Shown here one piece after another: positions 4,347-21,087 of a DNA stretch of 33,414 nt. The DNA comes from a virus: positions 1-33,414 of the IMG/VR virus record IMGVR_UViG_3300033553_000794; one strand, given 5' to 3'. Under the pieces are notes generated by a model. That model worked only from the letters and a program-made list of their open reading frames with translations. It was not told where the DNA came from and did not search any database. Position numbers and translations under genes: made by a program. Positions within the stretch are counted from its first letter, which is position 1; each line of letters starts with the position of its first letter.

Positions 4347-4611
4347 CGTCCTCTTTTAGTTCAAATAAGTAACAAATTACGGCGGACTCTACAGTAACCG
4401 TCGCAGAGCATAAAGCGCAAAACGCAGCTGTCCGGCGCAATCTACCGGGCTCAACCAGTACAAACAAGAATGCCCCCGCTCCTGTCGGCGGAATAGTCCG
4501 CTGGAATAGGATGATCAACAGGTTGGCGCCTAGTCGATATCTTTAACAGGATGCGGGGACATAATCAACATTTTCCCATTTTAACAATAGCGGGAAACGG
4601 GGAGCGGGTAA
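4347..4611. other. Gene-free stretch after the Cro-like gene
   Basis: About 265 bp with no plausible gene on either strand. A 5-bp hairpin (GCGGA, loop ATAG, TCCGC) lies at 4488-4501 without a T-run, so I do not call a terminator. An AT-rich patch at 4558-4592 could hold a promoter, but no good -35/-10 pair is visible. Confidence 0.4.
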
Positions 4612-5079
4612 ATGCCGGAACGTCGACAGAAAATGCAGTCTTGGCAGATTTTTCATTTTGCGCGCAAGCACCTGGGCGCGTCTACACTTTATGCGTTGTT
4701 CGGTAAAAAGAACGCGCGGGCTATTGATTACTGGTCGCAGGATCCTGACTACACCGATAAGCCGGAGGGGGCCTATGATCCGATTCGCGGCCTCAAGAAC
4801 CTGCTGGACAAGCTGGACGACATGAGCCATTGCGGCGTCGTGCGGGCTACCATTGCTTATCTGCTGTCGGGGACATCGATGTCCTGCGGCGAGCCGGAGC
4901 TGATCGAGCCGCTGCCGACTATCGAGCAGGAGCAGCTGGCCGACTACCGCGCCCTGGGGGCGATGCAGCTCGGCATTGAAGATGGTCTTTGTGTGCAGCA
5001 GGTCGAGAACCTTAAGGACGCCGCCATTGCGGAGATCGAGCGCACCGTGGCGAAATATCGTGAAGACTTCCATAAATAA
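4612..5079 (+). CDS. Putative early regulatory protein, unassigned
   Basis: A 155-residue cytoplasmic protein. The N-terminal half (about 8-60) contains FARKHLGASTLYALFGKK followed by ARAIDYWSQDPDY, a pattern I associate with small phage DNA-binding proteins in which a helix-turn-helix precedes a tryptophan-containing turn. The middle (GLKNLLDKLDDMSHCGVVRATIAYLLSG) and the end (LCVQQVENLKDAAIAEIERTVAKYRE) look helical, the latter possibly a short coiled coil. GGGGAGCGGG before the ATG may be its ribosome binding site. It holds the position of cII-type regulators in temperate phages, but I cannot show homology. Confidence 0.7.
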   Translation: MPERRQKMQSWQIFHFARKHLGASTLYALFGKKNARAIDYWSQDPDYTDKPEGAYDPIRGLKNLLDKLDDMSHCGVVRATIAYLLSGTSMSCGEPELIEPLPTIEQEQLADYRALGAMQLGIEDGLCVQQVENLKDAAIAEIERTVAKYREDFHK

Positions 5080-12096: not shown

Positions 12097-12343
12097 AACA
12101 GCGAACATCTGCGCAACTGTCTACGAAGGTGAATTTCAGCTCAACTTTGATTGCGTGGGAGTGGCAGTGTGCCAGTTTGCGCTCTGCCCAGTAATGCCCC
12201 CTAATGGTAGCGAGGAATGCACTTACCTTGAGCATGGCTCATGCCGATGCCCACATGCAAAATATGCGGCCTTGGAATCTCTCAGGAATAGGCTCACGAA
12301 AGAGTTGAAACTGATGCAGGAAGATGAGGACGGCAAATCCTGA
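12074..12343 (+). CDS. Second small Cys-rich protein
   Basis: 89 residues, starting at ATG 12074 because GGAGGAG lies just upstream; the longer frame adds an unlikely arginine-rich segment. The seven cysteines (from CATVYEG through CRCPHAKY) suggest metal binding. The C-terminal helix (YAALESLRNRLTKELKLMQE) is charged and could be a coiled coil. Its TGA overlaps the ATG of the large terminase (TGATG), so the two are translationally coupled. Confidence 0.62.
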   Translation: MPAKKATKTANICATVYEGEFQLNFDCVGVAVCQFALCPVMPPNGSEECTYLEHGSCRCPHAKYAALESLRNRLTKELKLMQEDEDGKS

Positions 12344-14403
12344 TGCTAACCGCCCAGACCCCGGGACTTTGCCGCCGCTATTCCGGCCCGTCTCTCGCCG
12401 CCATCCTCGGCCCCGAGATCGCCGCCCGGGTGCGTCCGCTGCTCATTCCTAAGACCGGCCGCGACATTCATGCCGCGGCCGGTCTGCAGGTGCACCGCTA
12501 CCGCCACTCCGCTGCCGAGCGCCAGGTGCTGCGCCGCCGCCAGAAGGAGCTGCCGTCGGTCTGGGCCCCCAAGAACTTCAAGGTACCCTACGGCCCGTTC
12601 GAGTCGCGCTATTTCTCTTTTGAGATCACCCCGCACCTGCTGGGCATGCTCGATGCCTACGCCCAGCCCTACGTCGGCAAAGTCACCGTCTGTGCCGCCC
12701 CCCAGACCACCAAGACCACCTTTGCCCATGTGGCCGCCGCCTGGTCGTCGGTGTTCGGCCCCGGTCTCACCCTCCATATCTATCCGACCGAGACCACCGC
12801 CAAGGAGATCATGGAGGAGCGGATCCGCCGCATCTATACCGAGGCCCCGGCCCTGCGCCGCCTGCTGACCGGCCGGGCCGAGGACATCGGTCAGCTCAAG
12901 CTGCGCCTCAAATCGATGCTGGTCCGCATGGCCTGGGCCGGCTCGCTGACCCAGCTGGCCCACCGCTCGGTTAAATACTGGGTGGCCGATGAGGTCGATA
13001 AATATGGAGAGAGGCCTTCCGAGACCGAGACCACTACCCTGGAGCAGATCAAGCTGCGCGGCCGTACATTTGAGCGCCAAGGCGGCAAAGGCCTGGTGCT
13101 GTCGTCGCCCTCCATTGAGGCCGGCAACGTCTGGACCGAGCTGACAAAAGAAACCCAGGCCGTTTTTGTCTACTGGTCGCGCTGCCCTTTCTGCGACACG
13201 GAGCAGCTGATGGATTTCAACAAGGCCCGCTTCACCTGGCCGCACGGTGCCGACGGCCACTCACTCGACCGCCTGGAGATCGCCGCCCGCAAGCTGGCCC
13301 GCTATATCTGTCAGGCTCCGGGCTGCCGGCGGGAATGGGACGACGATCTGCGCCACAAGGCCCAGGTCCTGGCCATGCACGGCGGCTGGCGGCTGCGCAT
13401 GGCGGATGGCAGCAAGGGTGAGGAAATGGGCCATTATATGCGCCGGGTGCGGCCGTGGTCCATCGGTTTTATCGTCCCCTCGTGGATCTCTTACTTTGTA
13501 TCGCTGTCGGCGGTGGCCGCCGATTACCTCAAATGCAAGGATAAAAACCTGAGTAAAACCGAACAGTTCGCGGCCTACCAGAATTTCCAGAACGCCCACC
13601 GGGCCCTGCCCTGGAAAATCGAAATGCAGGCCAAACCGGCCGATAAGCTGCTGCTGCTCTGCGATGACCGGCCGGAAGGCATGCTGCCCGGCGGCGACCG
13701 GGTGGCCGCTCTGCTGGCCACGGTCGATACCCAGGACGGCGGTCTTTTTTATCTGTCCCTGTGGGCCATCGGCTACGGCAAACTGCAGGAGATGTGGCTG
13801 GTCATGCGGCGGCCGGTCGACTCCTTTGCCGCCATCGAGCAGATCCTGTGGGGCGCGGAATACTACGATGCCGATGGCCAGATCTACCGGGTCCGCCACG
13901 CCTTTATCGATATGCTGGGCCACCGCACCAAGGAGGTCCTCGATTTCTGCATCAAACATTATAGGCAGATCACCCCCTGCTACGGCTCGGCCCGCGATAT
14001 GGGCTCCCTCGGTTTCACCTTCAGCCAGAAAGAGTATATGCCCGGCAGCGACCGGCCGATGGCGGACGGCGGCATCCGGGCCATCCGCATGAATTCCCGG
14101 CGCTATAAGGATTTTATCGCCGACAAGCTGGACCTGGCCCCCGACACCCCCGGCTGCCTCCATTTTTTCCGCGACGTCGGCGAAGACTACTGCAAGCAGC
14201 TGGTGGCCGAGGCCCGCGACGCCAAAGGCAACTGGGTGCAGATCGGCTCCCGGGCCAATCATTACGGCGACAACCTCTACACCGTCGCCTGCCTGGCCGA
14301 ATGGCTGGGCATCAGCGACATCCCCAAACCGGACAGCCGGCAGGTCCAGGACGAAGAAGACAGCATAATCGAGCAGGTGGTGGTGGCCGATATCGGCCGA
14401 TAA
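12343..14403 (+). CDS. Terminase large subunit, GpA family
   Basis: A 686-residue DNA-packaging motor and nuclease of the lambda gpA family, about the usual length. The ATPase domain has a deviant Walker A (APQTTKTT, 119-126) and a Walker B VADEVDKY at about 214-221 (D216, E217). A zinc-finger-like insertion follows (CPFCDTEQ and CQAPGCRREW). The C-terminal nuclease region includes TVDTQDGGLFYLSLWAIGYG and FIDMLGHRTKEVLDFC, with acidic residues as metal ligands, and closes with NHYGDNLYTVACLAEWLG. It cuts concatemers and drives DNA into the procapsid through the portal. It is separated from the gpW and portal genes by about 6.4 kb. Confidence 0.95.
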   Translation: MLTAQTPGLCRRYSGPSLAAILGPEIAARVRPLLIPKTGRDIHAAAGLQVHRYRHSAAERQVLRRRQKELPSVWAPKNFKVPYGPFESRYFSFEITPHLLGMLDAYAQPYVGKVTVCAAPQTTKTTFAHVAAAWSSVFGPGLTLHIYPTETTAKEIMEERIRRIYTEAPALRRLLTGRAEDIGQLKLRLKSMLVRMAWAGSLTQLAHRSVKYWVADEVDKYGERPSETETTTLEQIKLRGRTFERQGGKGLVLSSPSIEAGNVWTELTKETQAVFVYWSRCPFCDTEQLMDFNKARFTWPHGADGHSLDRLEIAARKLARYICQAPGCRREWDDDLRHKAQVLAMHGGWRLRMADGSKGEEMGHYMRRVRPWSIGFIVPSWISYFVSLSAVAADYLKCKDKNLSKTEQFAAYQNFQNAHRALPWKIEMQAKPADKLLLLCDDRPEGMLPGGDRVAALLATVDTQDGGLFYLSLWAIGYGKLQEMWLVMRRPVDSFAAIEQILWGAEYYDADGQIYRVRHAFIDMLGHRTKEVLDFCIKHYRQITPCYGSARDMGSLGFTFSQKEYMPGSDRPMADGGIRAIRMNSRRYKDFIADKLDLAPDTPGCLHFFRDVGEDYCKQLVAEARDAKGNWVQIGSRANHYGDNLYTVACLAEWLGISDIPKPDSRQVQDEEDSIIEQVVVADIGR

Positions 14404-14425: not shown

Positions 14426-15040
14426 ATGGAACTCAAAGGCATCAAATTTGCACCAAACGCCACCTTTGAAATGGTTGTAGCGGATGGCTTTTCCCATTGT
14501 GAGCCCGGCGAAGGGTTTGACTATATCGTCGGCCGGGTGGCGGGTGGAGAGCTGAAGGTAGTGTTTGATCCTTATTCACCCGATTTCAGCAGCAACATTA
14601 TCAACGGTGTCGACGGCTTTGGTTACATCCTGGCGTTTGAAGATAAGGAAGGGGACGCTAAGGTCGTGCCGGAAAGTGACGCTCCTGAGAACCCGGAGGT
14701 CGAGCTGCATGGCCAGTGGTTCCCGGCCGATCAGGTGCCGGCCCACACCGATCGTCGGCAACGCCAACCGGCTGGCCAGCCTGCAGCAGCTGCTGTTGCG
14801 CCGTCTGTGACAGGTTATGTCAGTTATGATGTGCGTGTTACCTGCCCGCATTGCGAGAGAAAATTGGCCCTCAATCAAACCCCATACAACGACGAAAGCG
14901 AATACTCTCCGGCAGAGGATGATTTAGGACTGGCGCTGTTTGGCACCAACCAAAAACCGGCAACCTGGGACGGTCTGGCCATCGAATATACCTGCTGCGC
15001 CTGCCAACAGACATTCATGGTCTCTTCTTTGGAAATATGA
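14426..15040 (+). CDS. Unknown protein with C-terminal zinc ribbon
   Basis: 204 residues. The N-terminal half (1-100) looks like a mixed alpha/beta domain with no known motif. A Gln/Ala/Pro-rich linker (residues about 108-130) leads to a C-terminal domain with CPHC and CCAC pairs about 50 residues apart, a zinc-ribbon arrangement. GAGGTAAGAGA precedes the start. It is the first gene of the accessory block between the large terminase and gpW. Confidence 0.62.
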   Translation: MELKGIKFAPNATFEMVVADGFSHCEPGEGFDYIVGRVAGGELKVVFDPYSPDFSSNIINGVDGFGYILAFEDKEGDAKVVPESDAPENPEVELHGQWFPADQVPAHTDRRQRQPAGQPAAAAVAPSVTGYVSYDVRVTCPHCERKLALNQTPYNDESEYSPAEDDLGLALFGTNQKPATWDGLAIEYTCCACQQTFMVSSLEI

Positions 15041-15113
15041 GACCTTCATTTCTTTAACGGAAGAATAAAAAAATTTTGAGACTGAATTAACAACCGGGCA
15101 GACGGAGAGATAA

Positions 15114-15332
15114 ATGGCAGCAAAACAGAGCAAAATCCTGGTCAATATGAGCGAGATCGCGGCCTATACCGGGCGGCCCGGCAACACCATTAAGAAGTGG
15201 GTGCGCGAGAATAACTTCCCGGCGGTCCTGATCGATGGGCGCTGGGAGTCCAACACCGAGCTGATCGACAACTTCCAGCGCCGCCGCCTCGAGGACCGGA
15301 TCAAGCCAGCCGCGGGCGAGGTGGGCGAATGA
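15114..15332 (+). CDS. Small helix-turn-helix protein, Nu1/excisionase-like
   Basis: 72 residues with a GGAGAGA ribosome binding site before the ATG. NMSEIAAYTGRPGNTIKKWV is a MerR/excisionase-type helix-turn-helix, followed by a basic wing (RENNFPAVLIDGRWESNTEL) and a charged C-terminal helix. Such domains occur in excisionases, terminase small subunits and phage activators. It is far from int, so an activator or packaging role is more likely than excision. Its stop overlaps the next ATG as ATGA. Confidence 0.68.
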   Translation: MAAKQSKILVNMSEIAAYTGRPGNTIKKWVRENNFPAVLIDGRWESNTELIDNFQRRRLEDRIKPAAGEVGE

Positions 15333-15856
15333 GCGTTGTTGCCAATCCGGTTCCGGCTGGCCAAGCCCGGCGGTCCCCCGGTCGGCCGCGTCCCCGGCAA
15401 CTACCCCGCCCGGATGGTGCCCCGCCCGCGCCGGCCATGCCCCTGGGTCAGCCGACCTTGCTGCTCAAGCCGCCGGAACAGATCACCGGCAGCCGCGGCC
15501 TGCCTTATTATCTCTTTACCTGCAACGACGGCGGGATCTACCGGATCACGGTCCTGGCCGCCCTGAAAGGCCTTAAGGCCGAAACCCTGCGCCACCGCCT
15601 CAAGGACTACCTCTGGTGGTCGCTGGAAATCCTCTATACCAAAGAGGAGGCCCTGGTCGCCAAAAAAGAGCGAACCAGCCAGCGCCAGGCCGCCGCCCGT
15701 CTGGCCAAAGAAGCAGCCCGCCTGGCCCAGCTGGCCGACGGCGGCAACAGTGAATGGGCGCGGCTCGGCCAGAAGACCAGGCCGCAAAATTTCCGCCGCC
15801 TTAAACCATGGGGCAGCTGGGAACAGCAGCAGGAGGAGCGCCGCCATGGCCGCTGA
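15329..15856 (+). CDS. Unknown protein with GSWE tail motif
   Basis: 175 residues. The N-terminal 45 residues are Pro/Arg-rich and probably disordered. A folded core (LPYYLFTCNDGGIYRITVLA, then LKGLKAETLRHRL) is followed by a long charged helix rich in Lys, Ala and Arg. It ends with RLKPWGSWEQ, which recurs as ALKPLGSWEL near the start of the next protein. It overlaps its neighbours at both ends (4 and 11 bp). Confidence 0.6.
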   Translation: MSVVANPVPAGQARRSPGRPRPRQLPRPDGAPPAPAMPLGQPTLLLKPPEQITGSRGLPYYLFTCNDGGIYRITVLAALKGLKAETLRHRLKDYLWWSLEILYTKEEALVAKKERTSQRQAAARLAKEAARLAQLADGGNSEWARLGQKTRPQNFRRLKPWGSWEQQQEERRHGR

Positions 15857-17426
15857 TCTGATGGGCCTGAGCAACCGGGTCCGCTCTGAGAACCTGGCCG
15901 CCCTGAAACCGCTGGGCTCCTGGGAACTGGCCCGGCTGGCCCGCGATGAAGGGCGGCCCCTGCCAAAGGCCCCGGCCCGCCGGCCATTAGCTGCTGATAC
16001 CTTTATTGATGAAGGTACCAGCTCAGATGCCACCACCAGGGCTGCGGCCCGCCCATCGCCGGCCGCCAAGCCGGACCAGCCACCCCAAAAAATTATAACC
16101 GCTGAGGTCAACACAATGAGCAAGCACGGCCGGGACGAAGCAGCTCCACCAACATCAACCACAAAGGATATCACTATGCCCGCTACAGTACAAATAGACG
16201 GCACCTGCGGCCTCTGCGACAAGAAGGCCCGCACCAAATTGGTAAAGGGAGTGTTCTGCTGCGCCACCTGCCTGACGATCCGCTACGCCGCCCGCAAACA
16301 TCCGGCGCTGATATTGGCCCAGGTCCGGGAGTTCCATCCCGAGCTGCTAGCCCCCCTCAGCTCAGCGCCGGCAGCCACCCCGGCCGCGGCCTGCGAACTG
16401 GCTGAGGCTCACACCGCCCTGGCTGACAGCGAGGCGCAAAATAAAGCGCTGGGCGCCTCTAATGTGGATCTGGTCCGGCAGCTGCACGACATGGAGGTAA
16501 AAAATGAAGACCTGCGTAACGCCCAGGAGTACTTGCGGCCCGAAAATAAGCGCTTGTCTCATCTGGTGCAGGAGCTGGGTCAGGCTAATATCAACCAAAA
16601 GCAAAAATTACGGGATCTGGAAGCTTTTCAGAAAGAGATTTTTTCCCTGCAGGTGCAGGAGACCAATCAGCGGCAATGGGCTGAGATTCACAATCTGCTG
16701 GCTGAGATTAACGGCCTGCAAGACATCCTGGAGGCCGGATCCGGAGTGACCGCGACCGCTGCCGCCCGGCAGCGGATGAGTGAGCTGCAGTATCTTAGAA
16801 ACCAGCCCGGGCCCTCCCAGGAGTTGCTGGCCCTGCAAGGCGAACTGGCAGGCCTGCAGGACGTCCTTACGGCCTGGGAGCAGGAGCGCGCCGCTTTACT
16901 CGAGGAGCAGGGCCGGCTGGCCGGGCAGGTGCGCTGGCTCCATGAGCAGCTGGCCGCCACCGAACGCAAGGCGGCCGGTCTGGAGCAGGAGGTGGACCGC
17001 CTGCAGGAGTGCACAGTCGGCACTATCACCAGCACCAGCCCGGTCGGGGAGGCCCTGCCCCTGATCGAAGATGGTCCGGCCGGCCAAAAGCTGACAACGG
17101 CCGGCGCCAGCATCCTCTACCCGCCGGGTTATGGCACCCTGACCGCCGTCCTCTGCCAGGCCATTGACCAGGCCAGCGCCGGCAAGGGGCTGGATCGGCA
17201 TGCCACGGCCGGCGAACCCTTCGACCGCCAGAAGATCTGCGAGATCACCCGCCGCGGCGGCCTCGGCTTTCCGTTGGGCCAGGCCATCAAAAAGGCTGAG
17301 GAGTCGCTGCGCCTGGGCACCGCTGGCCTCTACGAGCTCCTCGGGGCCATCAACTACCTGGCCGCCGCCCATATCTGCATGAGCGAACTGGTGCAACGCG
17401 ATCAGGCCCTGGAGCAGGCGGCATGA
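15846..17426 (+). CDS. Zinc-ribbon coiled-coil protein, unknown
   Basis: 526 residues from ATG 15846, which has AGGAGGAG 8 nt upstream; a longer frame within the previous gene is rejected. Order of parts: ALKPLGSWELARLARDE segment near residue 20, a Pro/Ala-rich linker, a four-cysteine ribbon (CGLC and CCATC) around residues 120-140, a long predicted coiled coil (about 185-400) with heptad-like Leu/Glu/Gln spacing, and a compact C-terminal domain from about 430 that contains YPPGYGTLTAVLCQAIDQAS. It could be a scaffold or DNA-associated adaptor. I recognise no family. Confidence 0.68.
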   Translation: MAADLMGLSNRVRSENLAALKPLGSWELARLARDEGRPLPKAPARRPLAADTFIDEGTSSDATTRAAARPSPAAKPDQPPQKIITAEVNTMSKHGRDEAAPPTSTTKDITMPATVQIDGTCGLCDKKARTKLVKGVFCCATCLTIRYAARKHPALILAQVREFHPELLAPLSSAPAATPAAACELAEAHTALADSEAQNKALGASNVDLVRQLHDMEVKNEDLRNAQEYLRPENKRLSHLVQELGQANINQKQKLRDLEAFQKEIFSLQVQETNQRQWAEIHNLLAEINGLQDILEAGSGVTATAAARQRMSELQYLRNQPGPSQELLALQGELAGLQDVLTAWEQERAALLEEQGRLAGQVRWLHEQLAATERKAAGLEQEVDRLQECTVGTITSTSPVGEALPLIEDGPAGQKLTTAGASILYPPGYGTLTAVLCQAIDQASAGKGLDRHATAGEPFDRQKICEITRRGGLGFPLGQAIKKAEESLRLGTAGLYELLGAINYLAAAHICMSELVQRDQALEQAA

Positions 17427-17614
17427 GCGGGCTTGATGTCGTCGACTGCCAACGCCACCGGGTGACCATCGAGGGCGAAAACTTTTATTTCATCATCGGC
17501 CCGGACTTCATCCACGCCACCGTCGCCCATGAAAACCGGCCGGAAAACCAGAAGCTGCGGCAGATTGTCGACTCGATCTGTGAGGCCATCACCACTCTTC
17601 AGGGAGGCACCTGA
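17423..17614 (+). CDS. Unknown 63-residue protein
   Basis: Coupled by ATGA to the coiled-coil gene. A beta-rich first half (RVTIEGENFYFIIGPDFIHA) is followed by a C-terminal helix (NQKLRQIVDSICEAITTLQ). It has no known motif; a small partner of the upstream protein is a plausible but untested guess. Confidence 0.6.
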   Translation: MSGLDVVDCQRHRVTIEGENFYFIIGPDFIHATVAHENRPENQKLRQIVDSICEAITTLQGGT

Positions 17615-17654
17615 TATGTTTTTTTTAACCACAAAACCAACTACGGAGGAAGCA

Positions 17655-18218
17655 ATGCCTATCATTTTAGATACCTCACCTGAGGCCGCCCAGTTTGTCG
17701 ACCATATTTCCGGCTGGGTCAGTCGGGACGGTCATTATTTTGGCAATAATAAAACTTCGGAGCAGGCGGCCCGGTATGCAGGTTGCACCCATACTTTATG
17801 CCAAGATTGTCAGCAGCCGGCCCCGAAAGAATATACTTTTTGCGATCTTTGTCGAAATAAACGCGCCGATGAACGCTACACCAAACGGGAACAGGTGGTA
17901 TGGGATGAAACGGGGATGCTCTATTCGGAGGCCGCCGATCATTACTTTTCGGCCTGGGATGAGGTTTATGATTTTGCAGATGATAACGCTCCTGGGCCTG
18001 TCGATTTGCGCTCTTTGCGTCTGCTGATCTGTGAGCCGGTTTATTTAAGCACTCTGGAAGATGATTACTGGCTGGATGATTTTCCTGAAGATACAGAGTT
18101 ACCGGCCGATGTTCAAACAGCATTACAAGAATTTAACGCTGTGCTCAAAGCTGCGGGCCCCGTCTCCTGGCGGCCGGGTGAAAAAGCAGTTTTGCTCCAG
18201 GAGGCCCCGGCAGCATGA
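17655..18218 (+). CDS. Zinc-binding acidic protein
   Basis: 187 residues. ATG 17655 was chosen for its GGAGGAAGCA ribosome binding site; an in-frame ATG at 17616 is possible. A zinc ribbon is formed by CTHTLCQDCQQ and FCDLCRNKRADERY (about residues 47-80). The C-terminal 100 residues are strongly acidic (LEDDYWLDDFPEDTELPADV). I recall similar proteins as conserved unknowns in phages. Its TGA overlaps the next ATG. Confidence 0.65.
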   Translation: MPIILDTSPEAAQFVDHISGWVSRDGHYFGNNKTSEQAARYAGCTHTLCQDCQQPAPKEYTFCDLCRNKRADERYTKREQVVWDETGMLYSEAADHYFSAWDEVYDFADDNAPGPVDLRSLRLLICEPVYLSTLEDDYWLDDFPEDTELPADVQTALQEFNAVLKAAGPVSWRPGEKAVLLQEAPAA

Positions 18219-18526
18219 AACCGCTCTTTATCCCGCTGCATACCGAATATTTCCAGGCCTTCAAGGCCGGTACCAAGACGACCGAGCTGCGGGCCTACGG
18301 ACCGCGCTGGAACGAAAAAACCTGCTGGCCCGGCCGCCCGGCGGTCCTCTCCAAAGGCTACGGCAAACAGGAGCGCCTGGCCGGTCGGGTTGCCGGTTTT
18401 ATAAAACAGCCAGCCCGCTCCTTTAATGCCACCGATCAACAGGCCATCCTGGCCCTCTACAAAACTTTGGATCTGGAGATTGCCGCCATCGCCATCACCG
18501 ATCTGCGGCCCTGGGGAGGGAAATGA
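18215..18526 (+). CDS. ASCH-like domain protein
   Basis: 103 residues. The opening MKPLFIPLHTEYFQAFKAGT with KTTELRAYGPRW, then CWPGRPAVLSKGYGKQERLA, follows the ASCH/PUA-like pattern, where a GTKTxExR-type loop and a glycine-rich strand bind RNA or modified bases. The end, IAAIAITDLRPW, fits the last strand. The fold is an inference from motif spacing. It is coupled by 4-bp overlaps on both sides, and might regulate mRNA or bind modified nucleic acid. Confidence 0.58.
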   Translation: MKPLFIPLHTEYFQAFKAGTKTTELRAYGPRWNEKTCWPGRPAVLSKGYGKQERLAGRVAGFIKQPARSFNATDQQAILALYKTLDLEIAAIAITDLRPWGGK

Positions 18527-19017
18527 TGGCGCTGCAACAAGACAAATTAAGCCAGTACGACGGCCTGATCAGGCGCCTGGATGGGGTCAAGCCCTACAAC
18601 GGTTACCTGTGGCCCACTGAAAGTTGGTGGGCCAATCAAGAGCTGGCCGCTTATGTCGACAGCCGCTGGCATTTTGGGATTGTCGCCCTGGCTGATGGCC
18701 GTTTTGCCGTGGAAGGGACCGTCTCGGCCATCGAGCGGAATGAATACGCCGGCCAGCCGGTCGTCTTTGCCACCAGAACAGCGGCCATCCGGACCGCGGC
18801 CGCCCGCCTGCTTATCCTGGCCCGCAAGTCGCAACGCTGGCCCGCCGGTACCGGCCTGCACGGTCAGTATCTGGCGGCGGTAATTAATTGGATCCGGCAA
18901 GTGGTCGCCCACCAGACCGGCGGCCCGGCGCCGAAACTCATCACGATCAAAGCACTGCCGCCGGTAGTTCGCAAGACCGGCCTGCCGCTGTTGGATTTTT
19001 TGGCTCAAGCTGAGTGA
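18523..19017 (+). CDS. Unknown 164-residue protein
   Basis: Coupled by ATGA to the ASCH-like gene, with GGGGAGGGAA before the ATG. Two Trp-rich stretches (GYLWPTESWWANQEL and DSRWHFGIVALADGRF) precede helices rich in Ala and Arg (TAAIRTAAARLLILARKS). I cannot assign it. It closes the coupled chain that starts at 15114; a 105-bp spacer with an AT-rich patch (19055-19100), where a promoter could lie, follows. Confidence 0.62.
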   Translation: MMALQQDKLSQYDGLIRRLDGVKPYNGYLWPTESWWANQELAAYVDSRWHFGIVALADGRFAVEGTVSAIERNEYAGQPVVFATRTAAIRTAAARLLILARKSQRWPAGTGLHGQYLAAVINWIRQVVAHQTGGPAPKLITIKALPPVVRKTGLPLLDFLAQAE

Positions 19018-19122
19018 GATTGCCAGATGTATTGGTGGGGAAGTCTAACAAGGGATTATATAGAAAACGTATAACACGCAATTTGTAATATTATCCGATA
19101 GCCGGAACAAACGGAGATCCCC

Positions 19123-19455
19123 ATGTCAGAGACCAGGCGGCCCTATGAGTCGTTCTCCCACCGCTTGCCAGAAAACGATGGCAAGAAAGAGGTTCAAAAG
19201 TGTATAAAGTATGAACTGTTCGCCGCCAAGGAATGGGCCTTGGTGTGGTCGCCCGGCGATCGCCGCTTCTGCCCGCCGCTGCCCTCGCCCGGCCTGGCCC
19301 GCAAGGAGTTCTGGGAAACCAGGATCCGGGTCCGGATCAACGGCTGCTGGTACGGGGCCAAGGGCCAGTATCTCTTTCTGACCCGGGCCGAGTTCGGGGC
19401 CCTGCTGCTGGGAGAGATGCCGGCCCTGGCTAATCAGTTAACCATCAATGAATGA
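19123..19455 (+). CDS. Unknown 110-residue protein
   Basis: ACGGAGATCCCC before the ATG gives a ribosome binding site. The protein is soluble, with WALVWSPGDRRFCPPLPSPG and a C-terminal WYGAKGQYLFLTRAEFGALL segment. No motif is known. It follows the 105-bp spacer and so may open a separate transcription unit with the small genes that follow. Confidence 0.58.
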   Translation: MSETRRPYESFSHRLPENDGKKEVQKCIKYELFAAKEWALVWSPGDRRFCPPLPSPGLARKEFWETRIRVRINGCWYGAKGQYLFLTRAEFGALLLGEMPALANQLTINE

Positions 19456-19467
19456 GAGGTTGAGAAG

Positions 19468-19863
19468 GTGAGCGAATCAAAAAAATACGCCCAGGGGGGA
19501 ATAGGAAGAGTGCCCAGCAATATAAATGCCGGTCTTCTGGTCGATTTTAATCATCCGGAATGGGCAAACTTGAAAAATTCTAGTGAGCTGCTACAAAAGT
19601 CAGCTATCATGTTTGCTCTATCTCTGATCCCGACTGCTAGACGAGCTGCAGCGGCCATGCGCGAGTTCGGCCGCAGCATAAAAGAAAATAATATGTCTTA
19701 CAGCCGAGTAGGAAAAGAATTCTGCGGCCGGGAATTCAGCGCCCGGATGAGGCTGGAAAAAGAGAACGCGTATCGGCAACAGCACGGGCGGTTGCCGGGC
19801 AGCAGGTCCACCGCTCGGTTGCGGAAAAAAAGAAAAGATCTGGTGGATCGAAATGAAAATTGA
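19468..19863 (+). CDS. Unknown basic protein, GTG start
   Basis: 131 residues from GTG 19468, with GAGAGGT 7 nt upstream. It has a hydrophobic stretch (LLQKSAIMFALSLI) near residue 45 and a very basic C-terminus (RSTARLRKKRKDLVDR), suggesting nucleic-acid or membrane-surface binding. The codon use is more AT-rich than that of its neighbours. It overlaps the next small gene by 11 bp. Confidence 0.52.
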   Translation: MSESKKYAQGGIGRVPSNINAGLLVDFNHPEWANLKNSSELLQKSAIMFALSLIPTARRAAAAMREFGRSIKENNMSYSRVGKEFCGREFSARMRLEKENAYRQQHGRLPGSRSTARLRKKRKDLVDRNEN

Positions 19864-20017
19864 TTTTTGGAGTTGGGCTGGGATTTATATCTGTCTCATT
19901 ATAATTTTGGCGGCAATCAATATGGTCTGGTGCGCTCAGTTTGGCAACTGCCTGATCGATGATGCCAGGCACAGCCACGGCGAACCTTTTTCTTTTTTAA
20001 ACCTATTAGGTAAATAA
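19853..20017 (+). CDS. 54-residue single-pass membrane peptide
   Basis: Begins MKIDFWSWAG and continues with a hydrophobic helix (IYICLIIILAAINMV) and a short polar tail containing CAQFGNCLIDDARHSHGE. It overlaps the preceding gene and ends two bases before the next ATG. No good ribosome binding site is seen, so it is probably coupled. A small inner-membrane protein of unknown role. Confidence 0.5.
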   Translation: MKIDFWSWAGIYICLIIILAAINMVWCAQFGNCLIDDARHSHGEPFSFLNLLGK

Positions 20018-20019
20018 CT

Positions 20020-20232
20020 ATGAGCCAGATAATACTTGATCTTGGTGGTTGGAAAAAAGAGATAGACCACCCTTGGCCGGCTGACCGGGTGATAACAGCC
20101 GATGTTCTGCCGCCCCTGTCGCTGATCGTTGAGCAGCATAGTGCCCCTATACAAAACAGGCCGGTCACGGTCAGGTTTTACAGAACAGGGCATTTCGAAG
20201 ATGGTAAGCCTGTTTTTAAGGCGGAAACTTAA
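20020..20232 (+). CDS. Unknown 70-residue protein
   Basis: Two bases after the membrane peptide. The sequence is beta-rich (SQIILDLGGWKKEIDHPW, RPVTVRFYRTGHFEDGKP). No motif is known. It is the last gene before the non-coding control region. Confidence 0.55.
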   Translation: MSQIILDLGGWKKEIDHPWPADRVITADVLPPLSLIVEQHSAPIQNRPVTVRFYRTGHFEDGKPVFKAET

Positions 20233-20256
20233 CATTTATTGCAAAAAGTTTGTTTT

Positions 20257-20650
20257 GGCGGCCCACCGTGTGGGAGAATCCGCCGCATGAGAACTTGTCC
20301 GGTGTAGCGATGACTCGATGCGGGCAAGACCAGCCAGATCTAATCGGGGCCTGAAAGAGGTGGTGGTAAGCTGGCGGGCAAGATGTAAAACGAGGCGACA
20401 TCACAAACGCGCCTATCATGCGGACAGCAGGCCGATCCTGCCCGAAACATTTTTTTCCACCGAGGCCAGAATAAAGTCGCCGCGATCCTCGGTTAGAAAC
20501 GGCGGATGACACCTGGGAAAGGTCCAGGGTAAGACATGCCTATACACCACATTTAAAGGTTGATTGCATGGCAGTCGGTGGAAGCCCGACATTCTGGCGC
20601 CTCACTCTCCATCCCGGCCGATCACTCACCTAGTGACCGGCTTTTTTTTT
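20257..20650 (+). ncRNA. Candidate large structured non-coding RNA
   Basis: No convincing protein frame is present, but complementary segments are dense. Hairpin 1: GGCGG/CCGCC enclosing CCCAC/GTGGG (20257-20284). An 8-bp long-range stem CCGCATGA (20283-20290) with TCATGCGG (20416-20423) encloses three stems: CTTGTCC/GGGCAAG (20294-20300, 20322-20328; one G-U), CCAGC/GCTGG (20330-20334, 20370-20374) and GATGT/ACATC (20382-20386, 20398-20402). The 3' side has GCAGG/CCTGC (20427-20441), CCGAGG/CCTCGG (20460-20465, 20487-20492), CCTGG/CCAGG (20512-20528) and GTCGG/CCGAC (20574-20590), and it ends in the terminator. No tRNA, tmRNA, RNase P or group I intron signature was recognised. The promoter was not identified, so the 5' end is approximate. 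Confidence 0.5.
20617..20650 (+). terminator. Strong intrinsic terminator
   Basis: GCCGATCACT pairs with AGTGACCGGC (9 of 10 pairs, one A-C mismatch) around a CACCT loop and is followed by nine T residues (20642-20650). It ends rightward transcription from the accessory block or the candidate RNA before the structural genes. Confidence 0.85.
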
Positions 20651-20655
20651 GCCTT

Positions 20656-20679
20656 TCTCGGCGCCTCGGCGTCTCTGCG
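20656..20679. repeat. Three tandem 8-bp units
   Basis: TCTCGGCG, CCTCGGCG and TCTCTGCG follow one another directly behind the terminator. The consensus is YCTCKGCG. Similar low-complexity C/T-G-C-G elements are, from memory, common between genes of many bacteria. No function can be given. Confidence 0.5.
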
Positions 20680-20760
20680 CGCTCCCTTTTTTTACCCCAT
20701 CTTTTGCCCCCAAAAACACCCCGCAACTAAAACCCTGTCAATAGCTTTAACTGTACTTGG

Positions 20761-20833
20761 AGTGTCACCCACTGTCACACACTGTCACCCACTGATTTGG
20801 CCAAAATCGTCGGGTATGCTGCGCGCACGATTT
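20761..20833 (+). promoter_or_regulatory. Putative late promoter with repeats
   Basis: Three 10-bp units AGTGTCACCC, ACTGTCACAC, ACTGTCACCC plus ACTG (20761-20794) end on a poor -35 (CTGATT, 20792-20797), which stands 17 bp before TATGCT (20815-20820). A perfect 7-bp inverted repeat AAATCGT/ACGATTT (20804-20810, 20827-20833) brackets the -10 and start site. The layout suggests an activator-dependent, possibly repressed promoter for the head and tail genes that begin at 20860. Confidence 0.5.
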
Positions 20834-20859
20834 CAGCAGTCTCTTTTTAAGGGGTGGAC

Positions 20860-21087
20860 ATGGCATTTACAACGACAGATCTGGGCAATGTAGAACGGGC
20901 AATTATTGATCTTGCCACCGGCAAGCGCTCCACCAAGTTCGTCATTGACGGCGAGGTGGTGGAGTATGCCGCCGTCGAGCTGCCGGCCCTGCGCGTTTTG
21001 CGCAATGAGATCGCCGGCGAGCTGGCCGCTGAGGCCGAATCCGGGACCGTCACCGCCTTCGTTTTTACCGGAGGCAAGGGCCTATGA
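20860..21087 (+). CDS. gpW-like head-tail connector
   Basis: A 75-residue protein close in size and position to lambda gpW (68 residues), which seals the portal vertex after packaging. It begins MAFTTTDLGNVERAIIDLAT and ends with an acidic helix and TAFVFTGGKGL. AAGGGG lies just before the ATG; a GTG two codons upstream is less likely. It overlaps the portal gene as ATGA and is the first gene behind the putative late promoter. Confidence 0.85.
   Translation: MAFTTTDLGNVERAIIDLATGKRSTKFVIDGEVVEYAAVELPALRVLRNEIAGELAAEAESGTVTAFVFTGGKGL

Follow-up and report, generated by a model that had tools for sequence, protein, structure and literature searches.

The window, that is, the whole stretch of DNA analyzed here, is a 33,414-base IMG/VR virus record, and it raises the question of what is encoded directly ahead of its head genes, in DNA where no protein is evident. 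The gene for the terminase large subunit lies at 12343-14403. Between it and a gpW-like gene there is a region of approximately 5.8 kb with mostly unknown genes (14426-20232), which is common to the closest relative of the locus (L001) and to other relatives in parts only. The last small open reading frame (ORF) before the non-coding stretch is at 20020-20232. No credible gene is found at 20233-20853, and this is followed by the gpW-like adaptor gene (20854-21087), a lambda-type portal and an S49 protease. A preliminary description had reported a gene-free region before the head genes, which is correct for the DNA between the small ORF and the gpW-like gene, and had treated about 390 nt of it as a single, possibly new, structured RNA.

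The 394-nt stretch (20257-20650) is not a single RNA, but consists of RNA1, RNA2 and a terminator. RNA1 lies at 20252-20448 and the compact RNA2, which has an outer stem of its own, at 20465-20598, both on the plus strand. The strong terminator that had been noted as closing the region is present after both RNAs on the same strand (20617-20650), as an intrinsic terminator with a predicted hairpin followed by T9 (GCCGATCACT-CACCT-AGTGACCGGC-T9). L001 has 84% identity over 20247-20456 of the window and the DNA on either side is unrelated; the two ends of this homology thus define the limits of the element. RNA1 has a tract of T residues at its 3′ end (20451-20457, plus strand) that L001 shares. 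As the homology stops at 20456 and RNA2 has its own outer stem, the reading of the region as one RNA of about 390 nt does not hold. Among 12 loci of portal-anchored relatives, the element is found in L001 only.

The folding energy of 20257-20650 is no more favorable than that of shuffled sequence (z −0.24), and RNA1 alone gives a z of −0.76. The case for an RNA must therefore rest on comparison among homologues, and the number of stems counted in the single sequence, which had been put forward previously, is replaced as proof by covariation. There is no conserved reading frame in the element, where the gaps relative to L001 are of 3 nt, 17 nt and 2 nt, and this gap pattern rules out protein coding at RNA1. 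A simple promoter scan gives no sigma-70-like promoter upstream of RNA1 on the plus strand.

Architecture and covariation of RNA1

RNA1 is described here from its 5′ end, with all parts on the plus strand. The 5′ strand of an acceptor-like stem, GUUUUGG (20252-20258), pairs with CCGAAAC (20442-20448); the window has GUUUUGG/CCGAAAC where L001 has GUUUUGG/CCAAAAC, a U-G pair versus a U-A pair. The D-arm-like hairpin that follows, CGG-CCCAC-CGU-GUGGG-AGAAU-CCG (20259-20282), contains the AAUC that is the counterpart of the conserved UAAUCAG of the family. This hairpin is built with CCCA/TGGG in the window and CCCT/AGGG in L001, and the form is repeated in L022 and L124.

The core domain occupies 20283-20423 and is closed by CCGCAUGA (20283-20290) and UCAUGCGG (20416-20423). 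This 8-bp stem, CCGCATGA (20283-20290) with TCATGCGG (20416-20423), is the one noted in the preliminary description; it does exist and spans exactly 141 nt. Within it, the 5′ side of helix P2 and the hairpin P2a (20294-20328) present a loop, GAUG (20317-20320), that takes part in a pseudoknot. The outer part of P2 (CUUGUCC/GGGCAAG, with its 3′ side at 20376-20382) competes with CUUGUCCG/CGGGCAAG within the P2a hairpin. Hairpin P3 (20330-20374) is formed by CCAGC (20330-20334) and GCUGG (20370-20374), and its loop is longer in the window than in most relatives. The signature UAAAACGAGGCGAC...CGCCUAUC (20386-20417) holds helix P4, made up of AGGCG (20393-20397) and CGCCU (20410-20414), together with the 3′ strand of the pseudoknot, CAUC (20399-20402), which pairs with the P2a loop. 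A T-arm-like hairpin, GCAGG-CCGAU-CCUGC (20427-20441), comes next, with the acceptor 3′ strand directly after it.

Covariation was assessed in alignment A2, which comprises 36 members having the inner-domain type of the window. RNAalifold predicts the closing stem, P2a, P3 and P4 on this alignment; 95.1% of cells are paired and 17 pairs have changed on both sides. The covariation score is 0.539, compared with 0.180 after shuffling (0 of 500); sliding the pairing partners gives no score above 0.099. Sequence relatedness inflates such pair counts, yet the slid controls retain this relatedness and still score low. The inner pairs of the closing stem occur as A-U (18 members), G-C (13) and U-A (5), unbroken in all 36. 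P3 has changes on both sides at all five of its pairs and is 97.8% paired. The pseudoknot, in which the P2a loop pairs with the loop that follows GAGGCG, played no part in building the alignment and is paired in 100% of the 36 members, one of its positions being U-A in 23 and C-G in 12. Helix P4 is invariant and so speaks neither for nor against the structure model, and the outer P2 is the weakest helix, at 73-82% paired.

Two covariance models were used. The first, R1, recovers members from outside its training set at 150 to 25 bits. The second, R2, was built without the window, L001 and L124 (the subfamily of the window) and finds the window at 20277-20431 with 76.3 bits and an E-value of 2.6e-18. 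At the level of comparative analysis, the family shows a conserved core, composed of the closing stem, P2a, P3, P4 and the loop pseudoknot, that is carried in a tRNA-like shell. A lack of covariation in the stems and a conserved protein frame had been named beforehand as findings against such an RNA; both were looked for and neither appeared.

Distribution of the family and its tRNA-like shell

A sensitive blastn search of isolate phages, with the element delimited by the L001 homology as query, gave six phage matches. These are weaker than is usual for significance and all map to a single short segment of the query; they are intergenic or lie across small hypothetical ORFs, several of them beside tRNA genes. 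They proved to be relatives, and have a common layout and a signature, TAAAACGAGGCGNC...CGCCTAT, that is present in the window at 20386-20416. Exact matches to this pattern number at least 120 in IMG/VR, against a rough chance expectation of about two. A further 18 matches were found in GTDB representative bacterial genomes of many phyla, the loci including Treponema, Pseudomonas, Enterococcus, Dehalococcoidales, Dyadobacter, Shouchella and Pandoraea. The Pseudomonas, Enterococcus and Pandoraea copies were checked and have terminase, portal or other phage genes close by. A 41-nt core query matched 20 isolate-phage records, the weakest of which are provisional, and these include Acinetobacter, Achromobacter, Pseudomonas and Escherichia phages. 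Few bacterial genomes carry the RNA: it is present in 1 of 200 for the Pandoraea family and in 1 of 199 for the genus Pseudomonas, the one being the starting genome in each case. A strict pattern search found L001 alone and a pattern specific to the window subfamily found no match. The plasmids searched gave nothing beyond short chance matches in Ensifer.

The statement that the locus fits no established RNA class is in agreement with a search of Rfam 15, in which the window element has no plus-strand match at the gathering cut-off or at E≤10. The lone match at E≤10 is to a lncRNA on the other strand and is attributed to chance. The relatives scanned have no Rfam match at the element save one weak, sub-threshold tmRNA overlap (L018). 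The literature search, which covered open-access papers, found no description of the RNA family. RNA1 is a member of a widespread and apparently unclassified family of phage non-coding RNAs, and it is almost certain that this is a structured RNA family. The earlier proposal of a new structured RNA is upheld by the covariation and the wide phage distribution, but its folding energy is ordinary and it is not one molecule.

An RNA conserved in both sequence and shape is thus carried by phages of Bacteroidota, Firmicutes and Proteobacteria, and is present in isolate phages while absent from Rfam. Such conservation points to a common step of phage infection that is so far undescribed. The family model can be used by phage annotators in searches.

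The shell around the core very probably imitates a tRNA. Its parts are an acceptor-like stem of 7 bp, a hairpin resembling a D-arm, and a T-arm directly against the acceptor, with the core in place of the anticodon arm. The abutting of the T-arm on the acceptor strand is a pattern of the family and is seen in the window too. In 54 of 90 members the two acceptor strands are Watson-Crick complementary over all seven pairs, compared with 6% when the partners are swapped. The complementarity between D-loop and T-loop exceeds that in all 2000 permutations and is clear in many members, and the recurring kissing pairs are GCUGAU/AUCAGC, UAGCGA/UCGCUA, GAUGAU/AUCAUC and GUGAC/GUCAC. The T-arms are near-canonical in some members (e.g., GCAAGGUUCGAAUCCUUGC in L101), and some members have D-arms and T-arms that are close to those of a canonical leucine tRNA. 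In the window, the D- and T-loops have no evident kissing pair and the T-loop is of 5 nt; its shell is therefore less tRNA-like than most. No more than 3 of 71 members encode CCA, which makes aminoacylation or a tRNA-type use doubtful.

Circularly permuted copies account for 5 of 118 (L023, L047, L070, L099 and L138). In these, a short hairpin replaces the usual shell and tRNA genes are nearby in most, which indicates that members can dispense with the usual shell. In L056, L061, L064, L067, L075 and L133, a tRNA or tRNA-like hairpin is located between the 5′ and 3′ parts of the core. ARAGORN calls some of these tRNAs within cores, and their anticodon loops are irregular.

One known RNA that the family calls to mind is tmRNA (RF00023 and relatives), with its tRNA-like end and a large pseudoknotted domain replacing the anticodon arm. 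Unlike tmRNA, the family has no tag reading frame and a different core, and its acceptor sequences are diverse with no conserved G-U at position 3, the place of the G3-U70 of tmRNA. The Rfam tmRNA models have no match in the window, nor at the element of CUS-3 or of most relatives; the L018 match is weak, at 18 bits against a cut-off of 47, and extends over the beginning of a family match that is itself weak. A tmRNA identity is rejected on the model match, the tag frame and G3-U70. Sub-threshold matches to permuted tmRNA, of about 34 bits against the cut-off of 47, are observed in L015 (994-1119) and L017 (1146-1261), beside family members within tRNA clusters.

The bacterial Y RNA YrlA occurs in bacteria and phages, is likewise non-coding, and imitates a portion of a tRNA. 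It resembles the family in this partial mimicry and differs from it in the core. YrlA was rejected since there is no Rfam match and no Ro60 partner, the Ro60/TROVE gene being absent in 16 of 16 records with a positive control. An ordinary tRNA differs in that the family core stands in for the anticodon arm, and ARAGORN calls no tRNA in the window. The combination of a tRNA-like shell and a core is directly testable in laboratory phages.

Proposed mode of action and competing explanations

The genes beside the family RNAs show little constancy. The nearest upstream gene is on the same strand in 53 cases and on the opposite strand in 44, and the corresponding numbers downstream are 56 and 46. 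The neighbors are varied: there are tRNA clusters, late regulators upstream, and positions near terminases or helicases, with Q-like antiterminators, transcription regulators and holin among them. In CUS-3 the RNA is between Q and the holin gene S, and in Enterococcus between a transcription-regulator gene and the terminase. Terminators lie downstream of 20 of 113 copies, compared with 4.5% of control stretches. The variety of neighbors, the presence on either strand, the terminators that some copies own and the exchange as a unit indicate a stand-alone RNA gene. Roles in packaging or as a leader attenuator had been suggested for this locus; as functions tied to the head genes they are unsupported, because the relatives adjoin varied genes on either strand, including tRNA clusters, late regulators, terminases and helicases.

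The reading favored here is that RNA1 is probably expressed late by the phage and excised as a separate molecule by tRNA-maturation enzymes, and that its core would act on conserved host machinery. The recurrent position after Q-like antiterminators or other regulators suggests late expression, and the RNA would be transcribed within late or tRNA-rich transcripts. The tRNA-like ends, the locations in tRNA clusters and the tRNAs that flank permuted copies suggest that tRNA-maturation enzymes release the RNA, and such processing appears reasonably likely from comparison of the loci. The RNA may be cut free by the nucleases RNase P and RNase Z or through flanking tRNAs, and the shell would then protect its ends. 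The least certain step is that the free RNA may act in trans, with the near-invariant core contacting a host component conserved across phyla. The near-invariant stretches are AAUC, GAGA, UAAAACGAGGCG and CGCCUAU, and the fact that core bases are kept from one phylum to the next suggests that the host partner is conserved too; action in trans on conserved host machinery is offered tentatively. The translation machinery would be the most natural candidate for this component, as a guess from conservation.

It has also to be considered that the RNA could be a building block of an RNA-only particle, in the manner of GOLLD and ROOL, with copies that oligomerize through loop contacts. GOLLD and ROOL are structured phage or prophage RNAs that are often near tRNA islands and sometimes have tRNAs inside (PMC12286853). 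The family shares this habitat of phages, tRNA islands and tRNAs inside the RNA, and its fold is elaborate and pseudoknotted. However, it is approximately 200 nt in length, whereas GOLLD and ROOL are of several hundred nucleotides with other folds, and an RNA particle is unlikely. Membership of GOLLD or ROOL itself is rejected, as there is no match to their Rfam models.

A cis-acting leader, either an attenuator or a put-type antiterminator as in HK022 that lets transcription pass the terminator at 20617 and enter the head genes, would fit the window, where the RNA is directly upstream of the terminator and head genes, and the many relatives near the start of a late transcript, after Q or other regulators. 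Such a leader is nonetheless improbable when the nearest genes are of many kinds, with those on the opposite strand almost as numerous as those on the same strand, a variation in orientation that also argues against likeness to put. Some copies are ended by their own terminator, and a leader would have no use for a tRNA-like shell or for permuted copies.

The shell, with its elbow, and the locations in phage tRNA clusters could also belong to a decoy that absorbs host enzymes attacking tRNA, such as anticodon nucleases and other tRNA-targeting defenses, and RtcB or RNA ligase genes are near some copies. This too is improbable, given that the anticodon arm, the usual target, is missing, that the core and not the shell is the most conserved part, and that RtcB is in only 3 of the 30 records tested. 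The same count rejects RtcB as a universal partner. RtcB, an RNA ligase, is encoded by the phages or prophages of the L116, L129 and L064 records and of L154; in L154 it directly adjoins the RNA.

The bases outside helices that are invariant across phyla (AAUC, GAGA and UAAAACG), the pseudoknot and the cassette-like exchange between unrelated flanks would be in keeping with a self-processing ribozyme or an intron-like mobile RNA with the invariant core as its active site. The element matches no known ribozyme or intron family, however, and no split exon is seen around it, making this explanation decidedly improbable. That the locus is only a DNA recombination site with an incidental RNA fold, its conserved stretches being the lambdoid “boundary sequences”, is extremely improbable: the bsq3 and bsq4 annotations of CUS-3 adjoin the RNA and shell sequences recur in many phages, but compensatory pair changes throughout, covarying pseudoknot included, select for RNA pairing and not for DNA identity.

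RNA2 and tandem elements

RNA2 (20465-20598) folds better than its shuffles (z −2.45). Its outer stem is formed by GCCAGAAU (20465-20472) and AUUCUGGC (20591-20598), and its 3′ hairpin, GUCGG-UGGAAGC-CCGAC (GTCGGTGGAAGCCCGAC, 20574-20590), abuts this stem; both are on the plus strand. In IMG/VR, the pattern of this hairpin, TGGNAGNCGGTGGAAGCCCGNC, is matched exactly at least 119 times, and in most of these cases the sequence upstream is a different one. The hairpin is also found in Stenotrophomonas phages, and the recurrence is seen for the 3′ part only. Rfam gives no match at the RNA2-type hairpin in 12 loci. RNA1 and RNA2 are not usually together, as R1 has no match in any of 68 RNA2-type phage loci, which amount to 624 kb of other phage DNA.

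In HK629 (L160, 1396-1887), the DNA from Q to holin has the same tRNA-like shell with no match to the core model. The corresponding DNA of CUS-3 (L159, 2389-2985) holds a family member, and only “boundary sequences” are annotated there. These lambdoid boundary sequences (bsq) adjoin the family RNA in the Q-to-S region and are annotated in CUS-3 as DNA boundary features only, not as RNA. The family thus links some of them to RNA genes.

It is possible, though put forward with reserve, that a modular RNA system exists in phages of bacteria at large, one in which interchangeable cores, including that of the RNA1 family, are set in tRNA-like shells, often in tandem. RNA2, the HK629 Q-to-S leader RNA and the tandem elements of L079 may be further members of such a system, and the lambdoid boundary sequences may in part be RNA genes of this kind.

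The elements of L079 are three in tandem within one prophage (4380-4900). They comprise an RNA2-type 3′ hairpin, a short element with a tRNA-like shell and the kissing pair GAUGAU/AUCAUC, and a member of the RNA1 family.
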